Shown here: positions 19,653 through 28,779 of the stretch, piece by piece
How positions within the stretch are numbered: the stretch's first letter is position 1
Layout: each line of letters opens with the position of its first letter
Assembly: GCF_000005825.2 (NCBI RefSeq)
Contig: NC_013791.2
Span: forward strand, 2,170,001 to 2,234,000
Direction of reading: 5' to 3'
Source of the DNA: Alkalihalophilus pseudofirmus OF4
GTDB lineage: Bacteria; Bacillota; Bacilli; Bacillales; Bacillaceae_D
Length of the DNA stretch: 64,000 nucleotides
Program-made: the position numbers and the translations under genes
The notes under the pieces: generated by a model
Told to the model about the DNA's origin: nothing
What the model saw: only the letters and a program-made list of their open reading frames with translations
Database searches by the model: none

Positions 19653-21044
19653 TTACACTTCCTTCACTAGTTCTAACCGAGTTAGTAATTCATCGTAATC
19701 ATTTGAGGAAATGGTCCTGAAATCGATCGCTATTTTATCATCTTTCACTCTCGTTACAACAGCAGTCTCCCCTAAACGGAGCGCTTCAATCATCTCTTGT
19801 GTTTTTTTATTTGGGTGGCTCAATAAGAGAAGCCACGTCTCTAGCTGTACATCAGGCATTGTGCCTCCGCCTACCATCGAGAAGTCTTCAATTAGTTCAC
19901 TATTCCATTCCTTACTAAGCATTGATGTAAACTGTTCTGACTCCTGTTTTATCTCTTCTTTACTCTTAACAATCATTTTAAGGGTAGGGATTTCTTTGAG
20001 TGCGGTGTTTGAATCAATATAAGACTTTAATGTAGCCTCTAGTGCTGCCAATGTCATTTTATCAACCCTTAATACTCGAGCAAGCTGATGTTTTTTCAGG
20101 CGATCAATCAACTTTTTGCTGCCTGCAATGATTCCTGCTTGCGGACCGCCAAGTAACTTATCACCGCTGAATGTGACCAGATCTACACCTTGTGCGAGAA
20201 CTTCACTCACATGCGGCTCATCACCTATCCCGTGCTGACTGAGATCATATAGTGCTCCGCTGCCAAGATCCTCATATAAGATGACTTCTTTTTCTTTCGC
20301 TAGCTTTGTTAAGTCTTTTGATTCTACCGCACTCGTAAATCCAATCGTCTTAAAATTACTCGTGTGAACTTTCATCAACATAGCTGTTTCGCACGAAATA
20401 GCTGCCTCATAATCTTTATAATGTGTTTTATTAGTAGTCCCTATTTCTTTCAGATGAGCGCCGCTCTCTTCCATAATGGAAGATACGCGAAAAGAACCCC
20501 CGATCTCAACCAGCTCGCCTCGTGAGACGATGACTTCTCTGCCTTTAGCAAAAGCTGTAAGAACAAAATAGACAGCAGCAGCATTATTATTTACAACCAT
20601 AGCCGCCTCCGCACCGGTCACCTCTTTAACGATATCTTCAATCAAGGCATGCCTAGAACCCCGCGCACCTTCCTCTAATCCGTATTCCAAGTTTGAATAG
20701 GACGTTGCTGCAACAATCACTTGTTTGATTGCCTGCTCACTCAAGATGGCTCTGCCGAGGTTTGTATGCAATACGGTTCCAGTCCCGTTTATCACCTTTT
20801 TTAACGTATAATCAAAATGCTTACTTAGTCGCGCTGATACAGCTGTGAATATCGATTCCTTAATCGAAGCCTCTTCTGTCCAAATCTCATTAAGGATTTG
20901 GGAACGCACTTCAGCAACCGCCTCTTGTAACCATTCTGTTAAAAGATCATCCGATAAATCCCCAGACTTTAACAACGTTATGTATGCCTCATCTTTTTGT
21001 AACTCATGAATTGGTGGAATTTGTCTTAGCAATCGTTGTTTCAT
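19653..21044 (-). CDS. selA: L-seryl-tRNA(Sec) selenium transferase SelA
   Basis: 463 residues, normal length for bacterial SelA, a PLP enzyme that converts seryl-tRNA-Sec to selenocysteyl-tRNA-Sec with selenophosphate. The family N-terminus LLRQIPPIHEL is followed by INGTGTVLHTNLGRAILSE near 85-103 and VVNNNAAAVYFVLTAF near 150; the PLP lysine lies in TFSGDKLLGGPQAGII near 292-307. ATG at 21044 follows AAAGGAG. Upstream a terminator closes the SelW-like gene, so selA needs its own promoter or read-through. Downstream it is coupled to a thioesterase. It completes the Sec set with selD, selB and tRNA-Sec in this window. Confidence 0.95.
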   Translation of the reverse strand: MKQRLLRQIPPIHELQKDEAYITLLKSGDLSDDLLTEWLQEAVAEVRSQILNEIWTEEASIKESIFTAVSARLSKHFDYTLKKVINGTGTVLHTNLGRAILSEQAIKQVIVAATSYSNLEYGLEEGARGSRHALIEDIVKEVTGAEAAMVVNNNAAAVYFVLTAFAKGREVIVSRGELVEIGGSFRVSSIMEESGAHLKEIGTTNKTHYKDYEAAISCETAMLMKVHTSNFKTIGFTSAVESKDLTKLAKEKEVILYEDLGSGALYDLSQHGIGDEPHVSEVLAQGVDLVTFSGDKLLGGPQAGIIAGSKKLIDRLKKHQLARVLRVDKMTLAALEATLKSYIDSNTALKEIPTLKMIVKSKEEIKQESEQFTSMLSKEWNSELIEDFSMVGGGTMPDVQLETWLLLLSHPNKKTQEMIEALRLGETAVVTRVKDDKIAIDFRTISSNDYDELLTRLELVKEV

Positions 21045-21118: not shown

Positions 21119-21361
21119 TTATTGATCCAACTCTTTCATTTTCTTAATCATATCTTCTGCTTTTGGAAAAACACCGGTTTCTTTCTTAGAATGCAAGGTT
21201 TCTCCATTTACCACAACTTCGAATACACCGCCCGAACTTGTTATAAGCTTGACTTCTGCAACCTGACCTCTAAAATGGTCTAATATGTCATCCGTGAGAC
21301 TCACGGCTTTAGGTGCAAAGTTTCACATCATGCAAAATTCAACAGATACTGTATACTTCAT
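21119..21361 (-). CDS. selenoprotein of the SelW/Rdx family (in-frame TGA = Sec13)
   Basis: 80 residues when TGA at 21325-21323 is read as selenocysteine. The N-terminus MKYTVSVEFCMMU forms the beta-strand and CxxU redox motif of the Rdx family (SelW, SelT, SelH, SelV); the rest has the typical VKLITSSGGVFEVVVNGE strands and the SKKETGVFPKAED turn of SelW. ATG at 21361 follows AAAGGAG with nine-base spacing. Without recoding, an annotator sees only residues from an internal GTG at 21304. A hairpin of SECIS type follows the TGA. Rdx proteins are thioredoxin-fold thiol/selenol oxidoreductases of unclear partner. Divergent from selD, 124 bp away. Confidence 0.88.
21292..21325 (-). other. SECIS-like hairpin of the SelW-like gene
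   Basis: TGA occupies 21325-21323. After 16 bases comes CCGTGA-GTC-TCACGG (21306-21292), a perfect 6-bp stem with loop GUC. The distance from UGA to loop is 22 nt, inside the 16-37 nt range known for bacterial SECIS elements, and the loop starts with GU as in E. coli. It lies within the coding region, as expected for bacteria. Confidence 0.7.
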
Positions 21362-21485: not shown

Positions 21486-22538
21486 ATGGACAAAAGAGAG
21501 AACATCCGTTTAACTACTTTCTCGACAAAAGCTGGTTGAGGATGCAAAATTGGTCCTGAAGACCTGACGCAAGTTTTGCGTCACTTACCTAAACAAACAG
21601 ATGATCCAAATTTATTAGTTGGACTAGAAACTTCAGATGATGCAGGAGCCTATCGTTTAACAGACGATCTTGCAATGATTCAAACAGTGGATTACTTTAC
21701 TCCTGTCGTTGATGATCCATATATGTTCGGTCAAATTGCTGCAGCCAACGCATTAAGCGATGTATATGCGATGGGTGCCAAACCTACAACAGTATTGAAT
21801 ATTGTTGGGTTTCCAATTAAAAAACTTCCACCTGAAATGCTTGCGGATATTCTCAGAGGAGCAGCAGATAAAGTGAAAGAAGCCGGCGCAGTAATAGTTG
21901 GCGGACATTCTATCGATGACCAAGAGCCGAAATTTGGTTTATCTGTTACTGGTCTTGCGCACCCTGACCGCATTTTCAAAAATGTCGGCGCAAAGCCTGG
22001 TGATGTTCTCGTTTTAACAAAGCCGATTGGCGTAGGCATTTTAACGACCGGCATTAAGCGCGAAGCTGTCACTAAAGAGCAAGAAGAAGCTGTGACTCGC
22101 ACAATGGCTGCTCTTAATAAAGAAGCTGCAGAAGCTCTCGAAGGATTAAACCCTCATGCGGTTACTGATGTGACGGGCTTTGGTTTATTAGGCCACAGCC
22201 TGGAAATGGCTAAGGGCAGTGAAGTGAGCTTTGAAATTCAAGCATCAAGTGTACCTATGTTAGAGGGTACAAAAGAATTGGCTCGGCAAGGAATTGTTCC
22301 TGGCGGCTCAAAAGCGAATGAGCGCTGGATCGCTCCTGATGTGGAGTATCAATCCTCCATCACAGAAGTTGAAAAAAGCATCTTATGTGATGCGATTACT
22401 TCTGGCGGTCTTCTTGTAAGTTTAACCGAAGAAGAAGCACAGCAGTATGTAGAAGACATGCATAAAAGAGGACTCACGGCTTCTATTATTGGCCGCGTGA
22501 GTGAAAAATCAGATTATCCTCTTTACGTTCAATCATAA
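21486..22538 (+). CDS. selD: selenophosphate synthase SelD, itself a selenoprotein (Sec18)
   Basis: 350 residues when TGA at 21537-21539 is read as Sec. SelD makes selenophosphate from selenide and ATP. The active-site segment is STKAGUGCKIGPEDL, where the Sec replaces the catalytic Cys of most bacterial SelD, and Lys21 is the conserved catalytic lysine. Downstream come DDAGAYRLTDDLAMIQTVDYFTPVVDD near 52 and the AIR-synthase-like MGAKPTTVLNIVGFP and VGGHSIDDQEPKFGLSV blocks. ATG at 21486 is eight bases after AGGAGGG. If the TGA is taken as stop, only a truncated product starting near 21576 remains. It is divergent from the selenium genes on either side. Confidence 0.95.
21537..21583 (+). other. 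SECIS-like hairpin of selD
   Basis: TGA at 21537-21539, 25 bases, then TGACGCAA-GTT-TTGCGTCA (21565-21583), a perfect 8-bp stem with loop GUU. The UGA-to-loop distance is 33 nt, in the bacterial range. The loop has the same size and starts with the same GU as that of the SelW-like gene. Confidence 0.72.
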
Positions 22539-22576
22539 AAAAACGATTCAGCTTTTAAGAAAGCTGAATCGTTTTT
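22539..22576. terminator. bidirectional terminator between selD and phnC-like gene
   Basis: AAAAACGATTCAGCTTT / AAAGCTGAATCGTTTTT, 17-bp perfect arms and a 4-base loop. Confidence 0.92.
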
Positions 22577-23309
22577 ATTTATAAATCTTAGCAAACACAT
22601 CATTCGTAAGCGCTTCAGGCTTGTTATCAAAGATTAATGTTCCTTCTTTAAAGCCGATAATCCGTGTAGCATACTTTTTGGCAAGCTCAACATCATGCAC
22701 ATTAATGATAGTCAAAAGACCTCTCTCATCATGAATTTTCCTTAGCAAGTTAAAAATCCGCTCAGAAGTCGTAGGATCTAGACTGGCTACCGGCTCATCT
22801 CCTAAAATGATACTAGGCTTTTGCATCAGGGCCCTTGCAATACCTACTCGCTGCTTCTGCCCGCCGCTTAGGGCCTCGACACGCTTATCCCTAAAACGAT
22901 CCAGCTCAACTTCTCTTAATGCTTGATCAGCCTGTGCTTTTTCAGAAGCCTTGAAAAGTCCTAGCAGGTTTTTATAAGCAGGACGCCCCCCAAATGAGCC
23001 AGTTAATGTATTTTGATATACAGACATCCGAGGAATAAGATTAAAATGCTGAAAAATCATGACCATTTCTGCCCGAATTTCACGCATTTCTTTTTCACGA
23101 AGACCAACGAGCTCTCTCCCATCAAAACGTATCGAACCTGAAGTAGGTCGAATAAGCCGATTAATACAACGAATAAAGGTCGACTTACCTGCTCCGCTCC
23201 GTCCTAGAATACAAATAAATTCTCCCTTATTCATCGTAAGGCTTATTTGATCTAATGCGTTTTCCTTCGCTTTTGGATACCTGACTGATAAATTTGAGAT
23301 CTCTAGCAT
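22575..23309 (-). CDS. PhnC-type ABC importer, ATPase subunit
   Basis: 244 residues of the PhnC branch of ABC ATPases. Walker A GRSGAGKSTFIRCINRL near 36-52, Q-loop MVMIFQHFNLIPRMSV near 83, signature LSGGQKQRVGIARAL near 153 and Walker B IILGDEPVASLDP near 175 are intact, with the H-loop at NVHDVELAKKYATRIIGF. Last gene of a three-gene operon (binding protein, permease, ATPase). PhnCDE systems import phosphonate or phosphite; this operon sits between selD and selB without any C-P lyase or phosphite genes, so selenate or selenite is an alternative substrate. Confidence 0.85.
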   Translation of the reverse strand: MLEISNLSVRYPKAKENALDQISLTMNKGEFICILGRSGAGKSTFIRCINRLIRPTSGSIRFDGRELVGLREKEMREIRAEMVMIFQHFNLIPRMSVYQNTLTGSFGGRPAYKNLLGLFKASEKAQADQALREVELDRFRDKRVEALSGGQKQRVGIARALMQKPSIILGDEPVASLDPTTSERIFNLLRKIHDERGLLTIINVHDVELAKKYATRIIGFKEGTLIFDNKPEALTNDVFAKIYK

Positions 23310-23321
23310 AAGGTTTCTCTC

Positions 23322-24083
23322 CTAAATAACTCTAGCTCTGATTCGCCCGCCAATAACATCAACGAATATGACTAATATCATAATACAAATGATGTCTAGG
23401 GCAACGGCTGTATAATAAAAGCTTTGAAAGTGATTAAATAATTGCTGCCCGATTCCGCCGCCTCCAATAAAACCTAAAATTAGCGACGTTCTGATCGCCA
23501 CTTCAAACCGATAAAAATAATGAGATAAGATATTTGGCCAAATCTGCGGAATGATCGAAAAAAGATGGCCTACCCATCTAGTCGCGCCAACAGATTTCAT
23601 CGCTTCTTGAGGCCCGTCATCTGCTGCTTCAATTAATTCAGAAATCAGTTTGCCAAGCACCCCGATATTATGCAGAATAATCGCAAGCACAGCTGCAAAA
23701 GGTCCAAGCCCAAATGCCGTGACAAAAATTAAACCGAACACAATCTCAGGAATGGACCGCAGGCCGCTTAAAAACGATCTGACAGAGCCATATATGACTC
23801 TAGAGCCGCTCGTATTTCTTGCTGCTAAAAAACTTAAAGGCACGGCTACGATTAATGCAAAAAAAGTCCCTAAAAATGCCATAGCAAGCGTAACTAAGCT
23901 TTCCCTTGCCATGCGGGGGAACAATGACCACTCAACTGGAAAGAAGCGATTGCTTATCATTTCAAAAATATTCGGGATTTGAGCTAATTTTCTCCACTCA
24001 AATCCCGTCATATTCATACTCCACCAAGTTGCTGCTATAATCAGCAGCAAATAAAAGAGGTATCTACGTCTGAACCAGACCAT
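23322..24083 (-). CDS. PhnE-type ABC importer, permease subunit
   Basis: 253 residues with about six membrane segments and the PhnE/BPD_transp_1 fold. The cytoplasmic EAA-type loop is seen around EAADDGPQEAMKSVGATRWVGHLFSIIPQIWPNILS (about 152-187), the contact to the ATPase. ILGFIGGGGIGQQLFNHFQSF near 205-225 is typical of the family. Twelve bases separate it from the binding-protein gene upstream and the ATPase downstream. Only one permease gene is present, so a homodimer is expected. Confidence 0.85.
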   Translation of the reverse strand: MVWFRRRYLFYLLLIIAATWWSMNMTGFEWRKLAQIPNIFEMISNRFFPVEWSLFPRMARESLVTLAMAFLGTFFALIVAVPLSFLAARNTSGSRVIYGSVRSFLSGLRSIPEIVFGLIFVTAFGLGPFAAVLAIILHNIGVLGKLISELIEAADDGPQEAMKSVGATRWVGHLFSIIPQIWPNILSHYFYRFEVAIRTSLILGFIGGGGIGQQLFNHFQSFYYTAVALDIICIMILVIFVDVIGGRIRARVI

Positions 24084-24094
24084 TCATTAAACTC

Positions 24095-25027
24095 CTATTC
24101 TTCTAGCTTAAGCATGTCAAATTCACGAGCAGCCTCAAGTACATCGGCATATTGAGTATCACCGGCCTCTACAAATGAAGATGCACCGCCAAAGATGCGT
24201 AAGATCTCTTCATCAGTAATTTCATAAAATGCCGCCCGAATGTCTTCAATTTCTTCTTCTGTCATCTCACTTGGAACGACCCAAGGGTACTGATATAACT
24301 TATCTGACTGCCAGATTACTTTAATATCCTCACGCAATGTCCCGCCATTCGCTTCATCATCTTTCATTAATGCTTCTAAAATTGCACTGTCAACCGCTCC
24401 TGCTTGTACCGACTGATCTTGAACAAGAGTTGTTACAATGTCATGCGAACCTGCAAATTGTACTTGAGCAAAATCATTATTCAAATCATCTTCATAATGA
24501 CCGCGATTACGTAATTCAAGTCCTGGAATTAGATGACCGGATGTCGAAGAGTTGCTCGCAAAGGCGAAATTAACTTCTTCACGGTCGGCAAGCATATCTT
24601 CAAGAGTTTCCCATTTTGAATCAGAATGTGTAATGATATAGGAATAGTAATAAGGTTCCCCGTCAATTTCTTGAGTAATGATTGCCTGCGCTCCGCTTTG
24701 TTCGTGGGCAATTAAATACGTTAAAGGCCCAAGAAATGCAAGGTCAATGTGATTGTAATTTAATGCTTCAACTACCGCATTATAATTAGGATATTGATTC
24801 ACTTCTACTTCGCGGCCGAGCGCATCCGTTAAATGTGATTCTAAATTAGAAAGTCCTGTTTCCATTTCGCCTGTAGACTGAGACGGAATAACCGCCACTT
24901 CAAACACCTCATCTGAAGTTTCGCCTCCAGAAGATGTATCCGCCTCATCTGTAGATGGTGCATCTTCTCCCGAGCCGCAAGCAGATAGGGTAAGAGCTAG
25001 TCCAATTGATAAAAGCCACTTTTTCAT
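24095..25027 (-). CDS. PhnD-type substrate-binding lipoprotein
   Basis: 310 residues. Lipoprotein signal (1-17, LTLSAC lipobox), an acidic spacer, and a PhnD-like periplasmic-binding fold from about 42 (FEVAVIPSQSTGEMETGLSNLESHL; NYNAVVEALNYNHIDLAFLGP near 105-120 is the family's anion-binding entry; FASNSSTSGHLIPGLELRN near 175 the second). It captures an oxyanion outside the cell and delivers it to the permease. Some PhnD relatives beside selenium genes are described as putative selenate-binding proteins; the location between selD and selB makes that plausible. ATG at 25027; the 125-bp leader contains a long inverted repeat (25078-25137). Confidence 0.85.
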   Translation of the reverse strand: MKKWLLSIGLALTLSACGSGEDAPSTDEADTSSGGETSDEVFEVAVIPSQSTGEMETGLSNLESHLTDALGREVEVNQYPNYNAVVEALNYNHIDLAFLGPLTYLIAHEQSGAQAIITQEIDGEPYYYSYIITHSDSKWETLEDMLADREEVNFAFASNSSTSGHLIPGLELRNRGHYEDDLNNDFAQVQFAGSHDIVTTLVQDQSVQAGAVDSAILEALMKDDEANGGTLREDIKVIWQSDKLYQYPWVVPSEMTEEEIEDIRAAFYEITDEEILRIFGGASSFVEAGDTQYADVLEAAREFDMLKLEE

Positions 25028-25152: not shown

Positions 25153-25482
25153 CTATTCTCGTTTTAGCTGCCTTCTTGAAAGAATAAAGAAAGGAAGAGG
25201 AATCAGCACCCAGGCGATGTTCTTTAATAATTGATTCATTGCTTGAGTGCGCTGCATTTCCATTTGTTCTTCTTTTTGTTCGAGGTAGATCTCGCGAATT
25301 TCTTCTTCTGTTTTATCAGAATCAGGCATCGATTCTTGATTCATCTTAAAATCTTGAAATGAGTAATAATACGGAGACGGCACCACTAAGTCAGATACAT
25401 TCATGGCCATCGCCACACCTCCGCCAATCATCATCACGAGGGTTACAAACATCACTGCATAATAATAGATGGTCCGAACCAT
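25153..25482 (-). CDS. two-TM protein of unknown function in the selB operon
   Basis: 109 residues: a first membrane segment (about 4-28, YYYAVMFVTLVMMIGGGVAMAM), an extracytoplasmic or cytoplasmic loop rich in Tyr, Met, Glu and Gln (PSPYYYSFQDF, EEEIREIYLEQKEEQMEMQ) and a second segment near 85-100 ending SRRQLKRE. ATG at 25482 has GGGAGAG upstream; an in-frame ATG at 25503 is less well placed. It starts 25 bp after the glycosyltransferase stop codon and so is third in the selB operon. I do not recognise the family; no Cys is present in the mature part and no in-frame TGA. Confidence 0.7.
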   Translation of the reverse strand: MVRTIYYYAVMFVTLVMMIGGGVAMAMNVSDLVVPSPYYYSFQDFKMNQESMPDSDKTEEEIREIYLEQKEEQMEMQRTQAMNQLLKNIAWVLIPLPFFILSRRQLKRE

Positions 25483-25507
25483 ACATACTCTCCCTTCATT
25501 CAATTGA

Positions 25508-26518
25508 TTACTTGCTTAAACAATGATTGAATACATTCACATAAGCTTTTATTTCAGCATCAAATTGATGATGATGACTAACGTATTGAAAAGCCTTTTC
25601 TGCGATCTCCTGTTGTTGCTTCGGGTTTTTTATTAAGGATTCCACCTTCATAATAAAATGCTCTGGTGAATCGAAAGTAAACCCATTTTCTCCATCTATG
25701 ACCACACTGCAATTGCCGGGATTCCTCCTTGCCGCTACGACTCGTTTTGAATACATCGCTTCAAGTAATGCTGTTGGCTGACCTTCTGAAATCGAAGTGT
25801 TGATCACGATATCTGCTTGCTTAAATATATGAGCCATTGCCTCTAAAGATACTTCCCCAATATACGTAAACCATTCCACTTCATCTTCTTTCATTTCTAC
25901 TTGTTTAAGAAGACCATGCTCAAGAGCTGCACCGATAAATACCACTTTCATTTCTGGATACCGTTCTGCTAAGGAAGTAAATGCCTCCCATAAATAAAAG
26001 ATATCCTTAACCTTTCTCAATCCTGCAGGTAATAAAATCACAGGATTTCCTTTAGGCAAAAGAATAGATTCATCAGTCTCTGCTGGCAGCCATATACTTT
26101 GCGGAATCACATGAGTCCGGTCGCTCAGGTCTGGATAAGAAGCTGCCACTTTTTCTTTCCCATCATCCGTAAATACGGTAACAGCACATGAGTCATCAGC
26201 TACATTCCCCATCAAAAGCAATGCATTTGGATCAGCTAAGTCTTCGTTAATATCCGTCCCTCCTGATGTAAGGACATATGGCTTGTTGAGGCTAACATCC
26301 TGCTTATTCTTCCAGTTGGCAAACCTCCGTAAATGTAGAATATGGTAAAGATCCACTTCATCAAAAATTTCCTGCCAACGATCATTCCACTTCATTTCCT
26401 CATAAGCGAAAACAACTACTTCTATATCCATTAGACGCAGTCCGTGCACGATACGTTTCGCAGTAGTCGCATTTCCTCTGTTTTGTTTAAAGTAAGGAGT
26501 AAAAAACAACACTCTCAC
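25508..26518 (-). CDS. GT4-type glycosyltransferase resembling SenB (selenosugar synthase)
   Basis: 336 residues, GT-B fold. N-terminal half: RVLFFTPYF, then RGNATTAKRIVHGLRLMDIEV, LYHILHLRRFAN and YVLTSGGTDINEDL; C-terminal half: VIPQSIWLP, ILLPAGLRKVKDIFYLWEAF, VVFIGAALEHG, YIGEVSLEAMAHIFKQADIVINTSISEGQPTALLEAM with the nucleotide-sugar Glu pair. The order GN-x-TA-x-R, LH-x-RR, LTGTD-like, HVIPQS, G-LR--KD, GAALD-like, YLGE-like is what I recall of SenB, which joins selenophosphate to UDP-GlcNAc in selenoneine synthesis. The GTG start at 26518 overlaps the selB stop (GTGA), so it is translationally coupled to selB. No SenA or SenC is in the window; SelD could supply selenophosphate. A plain glycosyltransferase of other function remains possible. 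Confidence 0.72.
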   Translation of the reverse strand: MRVLFFTPYFKQNRGNATTAKRIVHGLRLMDIEVVVFAYEEMKWNDRWQEIFDEVDLYHILHLRRFANWKNKQDVSLNKPYVLTSGGTDINEDLADPNALLLMGNVADDSCAVTVFTDDGKEKVAASYPDLSDRTHVIPQSIWLPAETDESILLPKGNPVILLPAGLRKVKDIFYLWEAFTSLAERYPEMKVVFIGAALEHGLLKQVEMKEDEVEWFTYIGEVSLEAMAHIFKQADIVINTSISEGQPTALLEAMYSKRVVAARRNPGNCSVVIDGENGFTFDSPEHFIMKVESLIKNPKQQQEIAEKAFQYVSHHHQFDAEIKAYVNVFNHCLSK

Positions 26519-28425
26519 GATTGTCTCACCCACTGCTCTATATGTTCAGTAATCCACACTCTTTTTTGGTCATCCCGTTTTGTGAGCTTTAGAGAATCTA
26601 GTTTTTCTAAAAAAGGAACAAGATATTTTCGTGAAAGTTCAGTATGATCTTTTGCTTCCTGTAATGTAAAACTCTCACTCGAACGCTCCCATAATTCTTT
26701 TACCATCATTTTAAATGGCTCATTATGAACAACTAATTTTTCATCTAAACGATAAATAAGCTCTTCTTGTTCAAAATAGTGAATAAGCTCCGGTCTTAAA
26801 TTCTCAGGCAGCTGCTGCGCCTCTAGATGATCGATAAGAGGCGAAACTTTAAACCCTTCTTTCCTAAGAGCCCCTAACACATGCTCAACCCTTTTTTCCC
26901 ATTTCTTTGGAGGGTGCGGGTGATGAGAGACAAGAGCAATGCTTGGACCAATGCGGCGGACTGAACCATTCTCAATTTCATTTTCAATTGCAGATTCAAA
27001 TAAAACGTTCGGGAATGCTGATTTATTTGCCTGAATCAATTCTGCTTTTGCCATCCCTTTTCTCATTGGATGGTCGTTATGATATGTCGTAAGATCTTGT
27101 ATAACTGTTCTCGCAGCAAGGGCTGACACTTCTTTTGAGGTGACAATTGAATGGCTCAATGGTATAAATTCTTTTTCTTTAATTGCTGCTTCTACTGTTT
27201 CTGCTTGTAATCCGGTATGTGAAATTATCTCATCGATTGATAATGCTTTTTCTACTGATAAGAGATTCGTGATTAACTCAACAGGCGTCCCTTCACGCTT
27301 TTTAGCAAGCATCTGAACAGTCGCCTGACCAAATTTATACGTCTGGCCATGCCCATCAATGACTTCTCCGCCGCCGATCGTCTCCATTGGAGTAGGACGT
27401 CTTAAAATAAATCGGTCTCCACGCCTTGTCACCACCGGTTCGTCTAAGCGCAGCTGGCAAAGGACCTCATCTCTCTCTGCTTTTAACTCATTGCGGTCAA
27501 AAAAGACGATTTTTCCATACACTTCTGATGTGCCAATATGTAATTTAATTGCCTGGCGCTGTTTGATCAAATGGTTCAGTTCATTAACTGTCTTTAAAGC
27601 AATATCAATCGTTTGTGTCGACTCATAACGGCCTGGGGCAGCGATCACATCCCCTCTTTTTAGCGAAGCTTTTTCAATGCCTCCTATATTAATTGCTACC
27701 CGCTGGCCGGCATGCCCCTCTTCTCTAGGCTGATGATGCACTTGAAGCTGTCTTGCTCGAACTAACTTACCCTGTGGCAGCACTTCGACCATATCACCTT
27801 CCTGTATCATGCCTTCATAAACTGTTCCTCTCACAACGGTACCTTGTCCATGAACGGTAAATACTTGATCAATCGGCAGTCTAAATGCTCCGCTTGCATT
27901 ACGCACATCTAGGACAGACAATTGCTCGATTAACCCTGCTTTCAATTCTTCTAAACCGACTTCTTCAATGCTGTCAACGAGAAAGACAGGCTGGCTATCA
28001 AGAAACGTTCCTCTGATTGAATCTTCTATATCCATTCTTGCTAGTTCTAGCATTTCAGAGTCTACTTTAGTTATTTTGGTCACCACAACCACCCCCCGCT
28101 TGATCCCAAGCAAGGTCAGGATATCTAAATGTTCGCGCGTTTGCGGCATGACGCCTTCGTCTGCTGCGATCACAAGCATAACCATATCAATTCCTGCAAC
28201 CCCAGCAATCATCTGTCTGATAAAGCGTTCATGTCCAGGGACATCAATGATCGATACTTCCATATCTTCATTTAAAGTGAGCGGCGCATAACCTAGCTCA
28301 ATAGAGATTTTTCGTTCCTGCTCTTCTTTTAAACGGTCTGTATACACATTTGTTAATGCTTTGGTCAGAGATGTTTTCCCGTGATCAATATGACCGGCCA
28401 TCCCAATCGTAAAATGTTTTTTCAC
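26515..28425 (-). CDS. selB: selenocysteine-specific elongation factor SelB
   Basis: 636 residues. GTPase domain: G1 GMAGHIDHGKTSL near 8-20, switch/G2 region, G3 DVPGHERFIRQMIAGVAGID near 57-76, G4-like VVTKITKVD near 118; then EF-Tu-like domains 2 and 3 (about 170-340) and a long C-terminal region (about 370-636) made of winged helices that bind the SECIS RNA, ending HIEQWVRQS. It delivers Sec-tRNA-Sec to the ribosome at UGA. The start is GTG at 28425 with AAGGAAG ten bases upstream; the frame extends further but only with weak starts. First gene of an operon with the SenB-like gene and a two-TM protein; divergent from tRNA-Sec 258 bp away. Confidence 0.95.
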   Translation of the reverse strand: MKKHFTIGMAGHIDHGKTSLTKALTNVYTDRLKEEQERKISIELGYAPLTLNEDMEVSIIDVPGHERFIRQMIAGVAGIDMVMLVIAADEGVMPQTREHLDILTLLGIKRGVVVVTKITKVDSEMLELARMDIEDSIRGTFLDSQPVFLVDSIEEVGLEELKAGLIEQLSVLDVRNASGAFRLPIDQVFTVHGQGTVVRGTVYEGMIQEGDMVEVLPQGKLVRARQLQVHHQPREEGHAGQRVAINIGGIEKASLKRGDVIAAPGRYESTQTIDIALKTVNELNHLIKQRQAIKLHIGTSEVYGKIVFFDRNELKAERDEVLCQLRLDEPVVTRRGDRFILRRPTPMETIGGGEVIDGHGQTYKFGQATVQMLAKKREGTPVELITNLLSVEKALSIDEIISHTGLQAETVEAAIKEKEFIPLSHSIVTSKEVSALAARTVIQDLTTYHNDHPMRKGMAKAELIQANKSAFPNVLFESAIENEIENGSVRRIGPSIALVSHHPHPPKKWEKRVEHVLGALRKEGFKVSPLIDHLEAQQLPENLRPELIHYFEQEELIYRLDEKLVVHNEPFKMMVKELWERSSESFTLQEAKDHTELSRKYLVPFLEKLDSLKLTKRDDQKRVWITEHIEQWVRQS

Positions 28426-28520
28426 ACAAGCCACTTCCTTCTCTCCGTATGTACGTTGTATTATCATACTACACGCCACACAGCAGTTAAAAGTGATTTA
28501 CTAAAATGTTATCGGGACGT

Positions 28521-28682: not shown

Positions 28683-28779
28683 GGGGCTGGCTGCGACACT
28701 GGTGTTCGTCACGGTCTTCAAAACCGCTCGAGAGGCGCGTGCCGTCTCTGGTAGGTTCGATTCCTACACAGTCCCGCCA
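28683..28779 (+). tRNA. selC: tRNA-Sec (anticodon TCA)
   Basis: 97 bases including an encoded CCA at 28777-28779. Anticodon loop CTTCAAA with anticodon TCA at 28718-28720 decodes UGA. T arm GTAGG-TTCGATT-CCTAC (28751-28767) is perfect. The acceptor stem GGGGCTG pairs with CAGTCCC (one G-U), plus an eighth position G/A. A long variable arm (AGAGGC ... GCC-CTCT, 28731-28749) is present. These are hallmarks of selenocysteine tRNA. The D arm is unusual and pairs only as a short helix. A short open frame overlaps but is not a gene. Confidence 0.92.

Follow-up and report, generated by a model that had tools for sequence, protein, structure and literature searches.

A selB-linked family 4 glycosyltransferase of Alkalihalophilus pseudofirmus OF4, member of a candidate Se-glycosyltransferase family with a de-N-acetylase partner

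What does a glycosyltransferase make whose start codon overlaps the stop codon of the selenocysteine-specific elongation factor gene selB? The question is raised by a stretch of 64,000 nt from Alkalihalophilus pseudofirmus OF4 (contig NC_013791.2, forward-strand positions 2,170,001 to 2,234,000), which was analysed as a whole and is called the window here. An original prediction, made from the letters of the window, had read this family 4 glycosyltransferase (GT4; the enzyme itself is abbreviated GT below) as SenB-like and its product as a selenosugar made outside the selenoneine pathway. From our computational analysis, we consider the GT a real, conserved candidate for a second family of Se-glycosyltransferases with a de-N-acetylase partner, and it probably catalyses the opening reaction of a cytosolic selenosugar pathway with two steps in bacteria that decode selenocysteine (Sec).

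The gene, its junction with selB and selenocysteine decoding

The two genes at the junction are:
25508..26518, minus strand: proposed selenosugar synthase of the GT4 family (336 aa, beginning with GTG)
26515..28434, minus strand: selB, selenocysteine-specific elongation factor (TIGR00475, 352 bits, cut-off 242; exact start uncertain)

At the junction the minus strand reads ...gggtgagacaatcGTGAgagtg..., and the predicted overlap of the GT start (GTG, 26518-26516) with the selB stop (TGA, 26517-26515) as GTGA could be confirmed. A Shine-Dalgarno-like GGGTGAG lies immediately 5' of this GTG; a second in-frame GTG exists at 26533, but the family alignment nevertheless begins at 26518. The survey of selB-GT neighbour pairs that the original prediction had suggested bears out the tight arrangement, since in 44 filtered loci (selB on the same strand and at most 400 nt away, start motif found; some genomes counted twice) the distance from the selB stop to the conserved start of the GT is −5 to +27 nt. 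With the GT gene placed directly 3' of selB in the window lineage, GT output would probably scale with the Sec machinery.

For co-occurrence, 150 genomes from the order of A. pseudofirmus were searched, with the GT called at E ≤ 1e-20. It is present in 37 genomes, one copy each, and selB in 75, and all 37 GT-positive genomes are selB-positive (Fisher 1.9e-14); at genus level, 21 GT-positive genera stand against 41 selB-positive ones among 83 (p 1.1e-8). Three members of the window's own family (G049, G087 and G145) have neither gene, and in the families f7, f25 and f35 the GT-positive genomes are selB-positive and the selB-negative member is without GT. The GT-negative genomes of the order that are shown have at least three first-look candidates each for the GT query, so the covariation with selB is not one of GT4s in general. 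At least one of selA, selB and selD lies within 8 kb of the GT in 31 of the 37 loci. In a phylum sample of 398 genomes, with the GT called at E ≤ 1e-40, the GT was found in 18 and selB in 266, again with all 18 GT-positive genomes selB-positive (p 6e-4).

Via GT loci, 27 genomes were reached, most of them without adjoining selB. All have a selB match at E ≤ 1e-40, 25 of them over the cut-off, and 26 have selD. One of the two below the cut-off, L138, carries a partial selB covering model positions 141-580; the selB match of L131 reaches 198.6 bits, in the range of the second, sub-cut-off matches of other genomes, and the L131 genome is without selD. The GT stands alone in eight loci (L091, L095, L096, L103, L104, L122, L128 and L134), whose genomes all have selB over the cut-off. 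This bears on the reading of the GT as an envelope or polysaccharide GT4 that adjoins selB by chance, for which the generic GT4 domain and the eight lone loci could be cited. We disfavour it as barely plausible and reject a chance neighbourhood: sel linkage recurs across many genera, selB co-occurs with the GT even in the lone-GT genomes, and a deacetylase described below pairs with it even where unlinked.

Family assignment and acceptor pocket

By Pfam the GT belongs to Glycos_transf_1 (PF00534, 88.6 bits, gathering cut-off 26.4). The top NCBIfam model is NF038229, 'GPMC system family 4 glycosyltransferase' (218.2 bits over the full length, below its cut-off of 400), followed by the SenB model TIGR04348 (72.7 bits over both domains, below its cut-off of 300); the BshA model TIGR03999 reaches 47.6 bits on the C-terminal part alone, below its cut-off of 273.7. 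The other five TIGR04348 matches in the genome score at most 26.9 bits. The three further family members scanned, from Geomonas, from a Rokuibacteriota metagenome-assembled genome and from one genome of the window's order, likewise have NF038229 as the first and SenB as the second NCBIfam model (79.1 to 98.6 bits for SenB). In a PDB sequence search RsSenB (8K5U) matched over both domains with E 3.5e-6, three other chains scoring higher over the C-terminal part only, and hhalign scored the family profile at 196 against SenB (two sequences) and at 151 against BshA (five sequences). Two simple identifications could be rejected. The GT is not SenB, given its distance from the TIGR04348 cut-off and the far better fit of NF038229, and it is not BshA, given the low TIGR03999 score and the presence of a separate true BshA (581 bits) encoded at another place in the genome; a separate BshA is present in all 13 genomes searched.

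In a careful tree of 62 rows, the family together with SenB separates from five BshA and seven other GT4 sequences (support 98/94), and the family forms a single clade beside SenB (92/86). This tree omits five long-branch rows, namely four GT4s and the family member L130, of a quick tree of 67 rows, in which SenB is not sister to the family but stands inside it, grouped with L130 and two CE4L rows (support 86). On profile scores and tree, SenB is thus the nearest characterised relative of the GT family at the level of sequence. The predicted SenB likeness accordingly exceeds chance and holds for pocket and ancestry, but does not extend to the GT being SenB itself. The profile search did return the better match to a non-SenB family that had been named as speaking against the prediction, but NF038229 is uncharacterised and SenB comes second.

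The AlphaFold2 model of the GT (predicted local distance difference test, pLDDT, 95.6) matches solved GT-B enzymes over its full length, as expected for a GT-B fold. According to PMC10891094, the selenophosphate pocket of SenB consists of N20, H58, R61, T83, T85 and R155. By sequence alignment, five of these six positions match in the GT and T83 corresponds to Gly86; altogether, in this alignment, the GT retains N20, T23, H58, R61, T85, Q131, R155, K158, E231 and E239 of SenB. N20, T23, H58 and Q131 are found in none of five BshA sequences, and among 11 other GT4s in 1, 2, 0 and 0, respectively. For Se-P cleavage, SenB Lys158 has been proposed, and the K158A variant of SenB is reported to trap the selenophospho-sugar (PMC10891094). 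The equivalent Lys171 is invariant among the 48 family members; since 5 of 5 BshA and 10 of 11 other GT4s have it as well, it is not SenB-specific. The SenB motif EGGAHV is absent, the GT having SEGQPTAL.

De-N-acetylase partners and the proposed pathway

A contiguous arrangement GT-selD-phnD-phnE-phnC-NodB was found in 17 named loci (Planococcus, Cytobacillus, Sediminibacillus, Virgibacillus and others) and in five loci of the order sample. The NodB partner is a protein of about 200 aa (PF01522), nearest to PdaB and PdaA and below their cut-offs (two proteins scanned), with an AlphaFold2 model of pLDDT 92.2. Its motifs FDDGP, HxxxH, RPPxG and LLHE are invariant across 21 aligned rows, in which no signal peptide is visible by eye, so that a substrate in the cytosol is to be expected. 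At E ≤ 1e-50, NodB is present in 28 of the 37 GT-positive genomes of the order and in none of the 113 GT-negative ones (p 7e-23), and the pairing holds within the 75 selB-positive genomes (p 4e-13). Nineteen of these 28 NodB genes are unlinked, being located either on a different contig or 46 kb or more away from the GT, and their surroundings show no consistent neighbour, the synteny seen being common to four genomes of one family (f46). Linkage can therefore not explain the pairing. In a NodB tree, midpoint-rooted for drawing, 17 of the 19 unlinked copies group with the Mesobacillus harenae NodB. The GT of M. harenae is a member of the selB-linked clade and yet adjoins this NodB.

Outside the window, 9 of 17 phylum-sample loci have the GT next to a protein of 223-258 aa, all nine forming one cluster. 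The two scanned are of the PIG-L type (PF02585, 'GlcNAc-PI de-N-acetylase'), nearest to BshB1 and below its cut-off. With NodB in some loci and PIG-L in others, two de-N-acetylase families partner one GT family. As a separate observation, a protein of 450-490 aa with the motifs FHSxSHSxHPT and TQPGxNW lies beside the GT in four phylum-sample genomes (for example L186:8015-9469 and L189:10524-11879). Its resemblance to CE4 is weak (with Pfam, one of the two proteins scanned reaches 24.6 bits; the hhalign probability is 27.8 and the top PDB hit has E 0.46), and it is perhaps a divergent CE4-like enzyme and a tentative third partner candidate.

Selenophosphate is made by SelD. SenB converts selenophosphate and UDP-sugars, UDP-GlcNAc included, to selenosugars (PMC10891094). 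By homology, the GT would transfer a sugar, most likely N-acetylglucosamine from UDP-GlcNAc, to the selenium of selenophosphate, and the Se-P bond would be hydrolysed with help of Lys171, yielding seleno-GlcNAc; UDP-GlcNAc is the expected donor because the partners are GlcNAc de-N-acetylase types. As the gene associations suggest, the de-N-acetylase, of the NodB/CE4 type in Bacilli and, in Bacillota of other classes, of a PIG-L type resembling BshB, would then remove the acetyl group to give a seleno-glucosamine-type selenol. This product may store, buffer or deliver selenium, may serve as a low-molecular-weight selenol, or may be extended further as a precursor. More tentatively, we put forward that Sec-decoding bacteria of more than one phylum might have a dedicated selenophosphate branch, in which a SenB-sister GT forms a seleno-N-acetylhexosamine and a cytosolic de-N-acetylase releases the free amino-selenosugar. 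The predicted selenosugar outside the selenoneine pathway is backed indirectly, by selB co-occurrence at order and phylum level, by the selD and transporter operons and by the de-N-acetylase partners.

A target among the macromolecules of the Sec pathway, namely glycosylation of tRNA-Sec, SelB or a selenoprotein, would also agree with the recurrent selB junction and the selB co-occurrence. We regard it as very unlikely, as in one lineage the GT is found together with selD, the transporter and the deacetylase instead of behind selB, the close relatives SenB and BshA use small acceptors, and the NodB partners, with no visible export signal, should meet small cytosolic substrates.

Several observations weigh against the selenosugar pathway. 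The fold of the GT is equally near to BshA, Foldseek ranking SenB first and VIA-align ranking BshA first. The window's own genome has no NodB match at E ≤ 1e-50 and is one of nine GT-positive genomes of the order without a match at this threshold, weaker matches not being listed. In Geobacterales, the GT is not associated with selB, which is present in 63 of 69 GT-positive and 25 of 28 GT-negative genomes (p 0.51). In addition, an approximately unbiased (AU) test does not reject SenB and BshA as a single clade (p 0.19). With this result and the undecided fold comparison, the case for a tie to SenB is built on the support in the tree, the profile scores and the residues of the pocket.

In the biosynthesis of bacillithiol (BshA/BshB) and mycothiol (MshA/MshB), a GT4 is followed by a GlcNAc de-N-acetylase. 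In the same manner, the GT and its de-N-acetylase could produce a low-molecular-weight compound that resembles bacillithiol and is required by Sec-decoding cells, for instance as a reductant for selenium delivery. The acceptor would then be free of selenium, such as an organic acid, thiophosphate or some other small anion. This logic, the fold as close to BshA as to SenB, the BshB1-like PIG-L partner and the unrejected joint clade agree with such a compound. We nevertheless consider it unlikely, since the acceptor-pocket residues resemble SenB and not BshA, BshA is already present in every genome searched for it, and the selD operons point to selenophosphate.

The Geobacterales result concerns the scope of the selenosugar pathway. 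Among six GT-positive, selB-negative genomes of this group, four keep SelD and two (G212, G231) have none over the cut-off. It is possible, though not what we expect, that this GPMC branch does something else and that the selenium link is limited to the Bacillota branch, which would be compatible with our preferred explanation. The different neighbours in the GPMC system and the missing selB association agree with such a limit; the retention of most SenB-like residues by GPMC members, the Geomonas GT included, and the SelD kept in four of the six genomes argue against it.

Two further observations were made in this group. In Geomonas (L118:4257-11017), the relative of the GT stands beside a sigma-54 regulator (NF038230), TIGR04442 and a PhnP-like metallo-beta-lactamase (MBL) hydrolase (NF038231), which belong to the GPMC system. 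Four genomes (G222, G250, G254 and G256) have the GT and a SelD without in-frame stop, with no selB at E ≤ 1e-60; judged from gene content, they would use selenophosphate without Sec decoding, by the GT or by selenouridine synthesis.

The selenium island and known systems

The other features of the island in the window are:
19653..21044, minus strand: selA, L-seryl-tRNA(Sec) selenium transferase (TIGR00474, 571 bits)
21119..21361, minus strand: SelW/Rdx-family open reading frame (ORF) with CMMU motif, UGA at 21323-21325 (TIGR02174, 58.9 bits, cut-off 34.2, TGA read as U)
21486..22538, plus strand: selD, selenide water dikinase, the selenophosphate source (TIGR00476, 424 bits, cut-off 125, TGA read as U; in-frame UGA at 21537-21539)
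22575..23309, minus strand: PhnC-like ATPase (TIGR02315, 309 bits, over cut-off)
23322..24083, minus strand: PhnE-like permease (TIGR01097, 261 bits, over cut-off)
24095..25027, minus strand: PhnD-like substrate-binding lipoprotein (192 bits with TIGR01098, over cut-off; 141 bits with TIGR04553 'putative selenate', below its cut-off of 250)
25153..25503, minus strand: small membrane protein between the GT and phnD
28683..28779, plus strand: tRNA-Sec (UCA) (ARAGORN; Rfam RF01852, 58 bits)

SelD, on which the original prediction had relied for selenophosphate, is thus present. Its in-frame UGA falls within the sequence GUGC, and selenophosphate synthesis would consequently depend on Sec decoding. 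The predicted lack of SenA also holds, within a search limited to the window: none of its 150 ORFs matched a plasmid SenA or the EgtB-like neighbour of another senB at E ≤ 0.01. The same 150 ORFs gave no match at this threshold to the Geomonas GPMC proteins NF038230, TIGR04442 and NF038231. The SelW/SelT/SelH-family ORF beside selD is likely a selenoprotein overlooked by plain ORF calling. The PhnCDE-type transporter (22575-25027, minus strand) may be a selenium importer, with PhnD as candidate component for selenium-oxyanion uptake, because NCBIfam holds the related 'putative selenate' model; phnD and phnE lie within 8 kb of the GT in 24 of the 37 loci of the order sample. Among these 37 loci, the small membrane protein recurs solely in a genome of the same genus (G117).

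If the proposed pathway holds, part of the selenophosphate in many Bacillota goes to an unrecognised metabolite, and a further selenophosphate-dependent trait is added to Sec, selenouridine, the molybdenum-hydroxylase cofactor and selenoneine. The finding offers two paired genes, an intermediate that is predicted and a searchable mass, computed as about 285.01 (monoisotopic) for seleno-GlcNAc, C8H15NO5Se, about 568.01 for its diselenide and about 243.00 after the predicted loss of 42.01 on deacetylation. With them it suggests a candidate explanation of the way in which reactive selenium is held in cells that decode Sec. We found no description of a selB-linked GT or of a selenosugar de-N-acetylase in the open-licence literature. 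SenB was called the sole identified Se-glycosyltransferase in 2024 (PMC10891094), and the GT family would be the second.

Compared with known systems, the accessible parts of Lin et al. 2015 (PMC5322559) place LysR_Se regulators near Sec genes and name YedE, YedF, LysR_Se and DUF3343 as candidates. In several of our loci a LysR gene, known here only as LysR, likewise adjoins the GT or selD. The GT family is not among the candidates in those parts, where the word 'glycosyltransferase' occurs once, within a STRING table. The GPMC glycosyltransferase NF038229 of Geobacter and Pelobacter is the best full-length model, and Geomonas members fall within the clade of the GT, but the GT stays below its cut-off and the GPMC neighbours are unmatched in the window. 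SenB of selenoneine biosynthesis (TIGR04348; PDB 8JJN, 8K5U, 8RZ3) shares the GT-B fold and ten positions, and in the careful tree no characterised family lies closer. In contrast to SenB, the GT has a low model score, glycine for T83 and a replaced EGGAHV, is found with selD and not in a senA and senC cluster, and belongs to a family tied to Sec decoding and de-N-acetylases. From BshA it differs in a match confined to the C-terminal domain, in its pocket residues and in the separate true BshA of the genome. With BshA/BshB and MshA/MshB it shares the combination of a GT4 with a GlcNAc-type de-N-acetylase, the PIG-L partner being nearest to BshB1, and the proposed pathway would thus be a selenium counterpart of the front end of bacillithiol and mycothiol biosynthesis.
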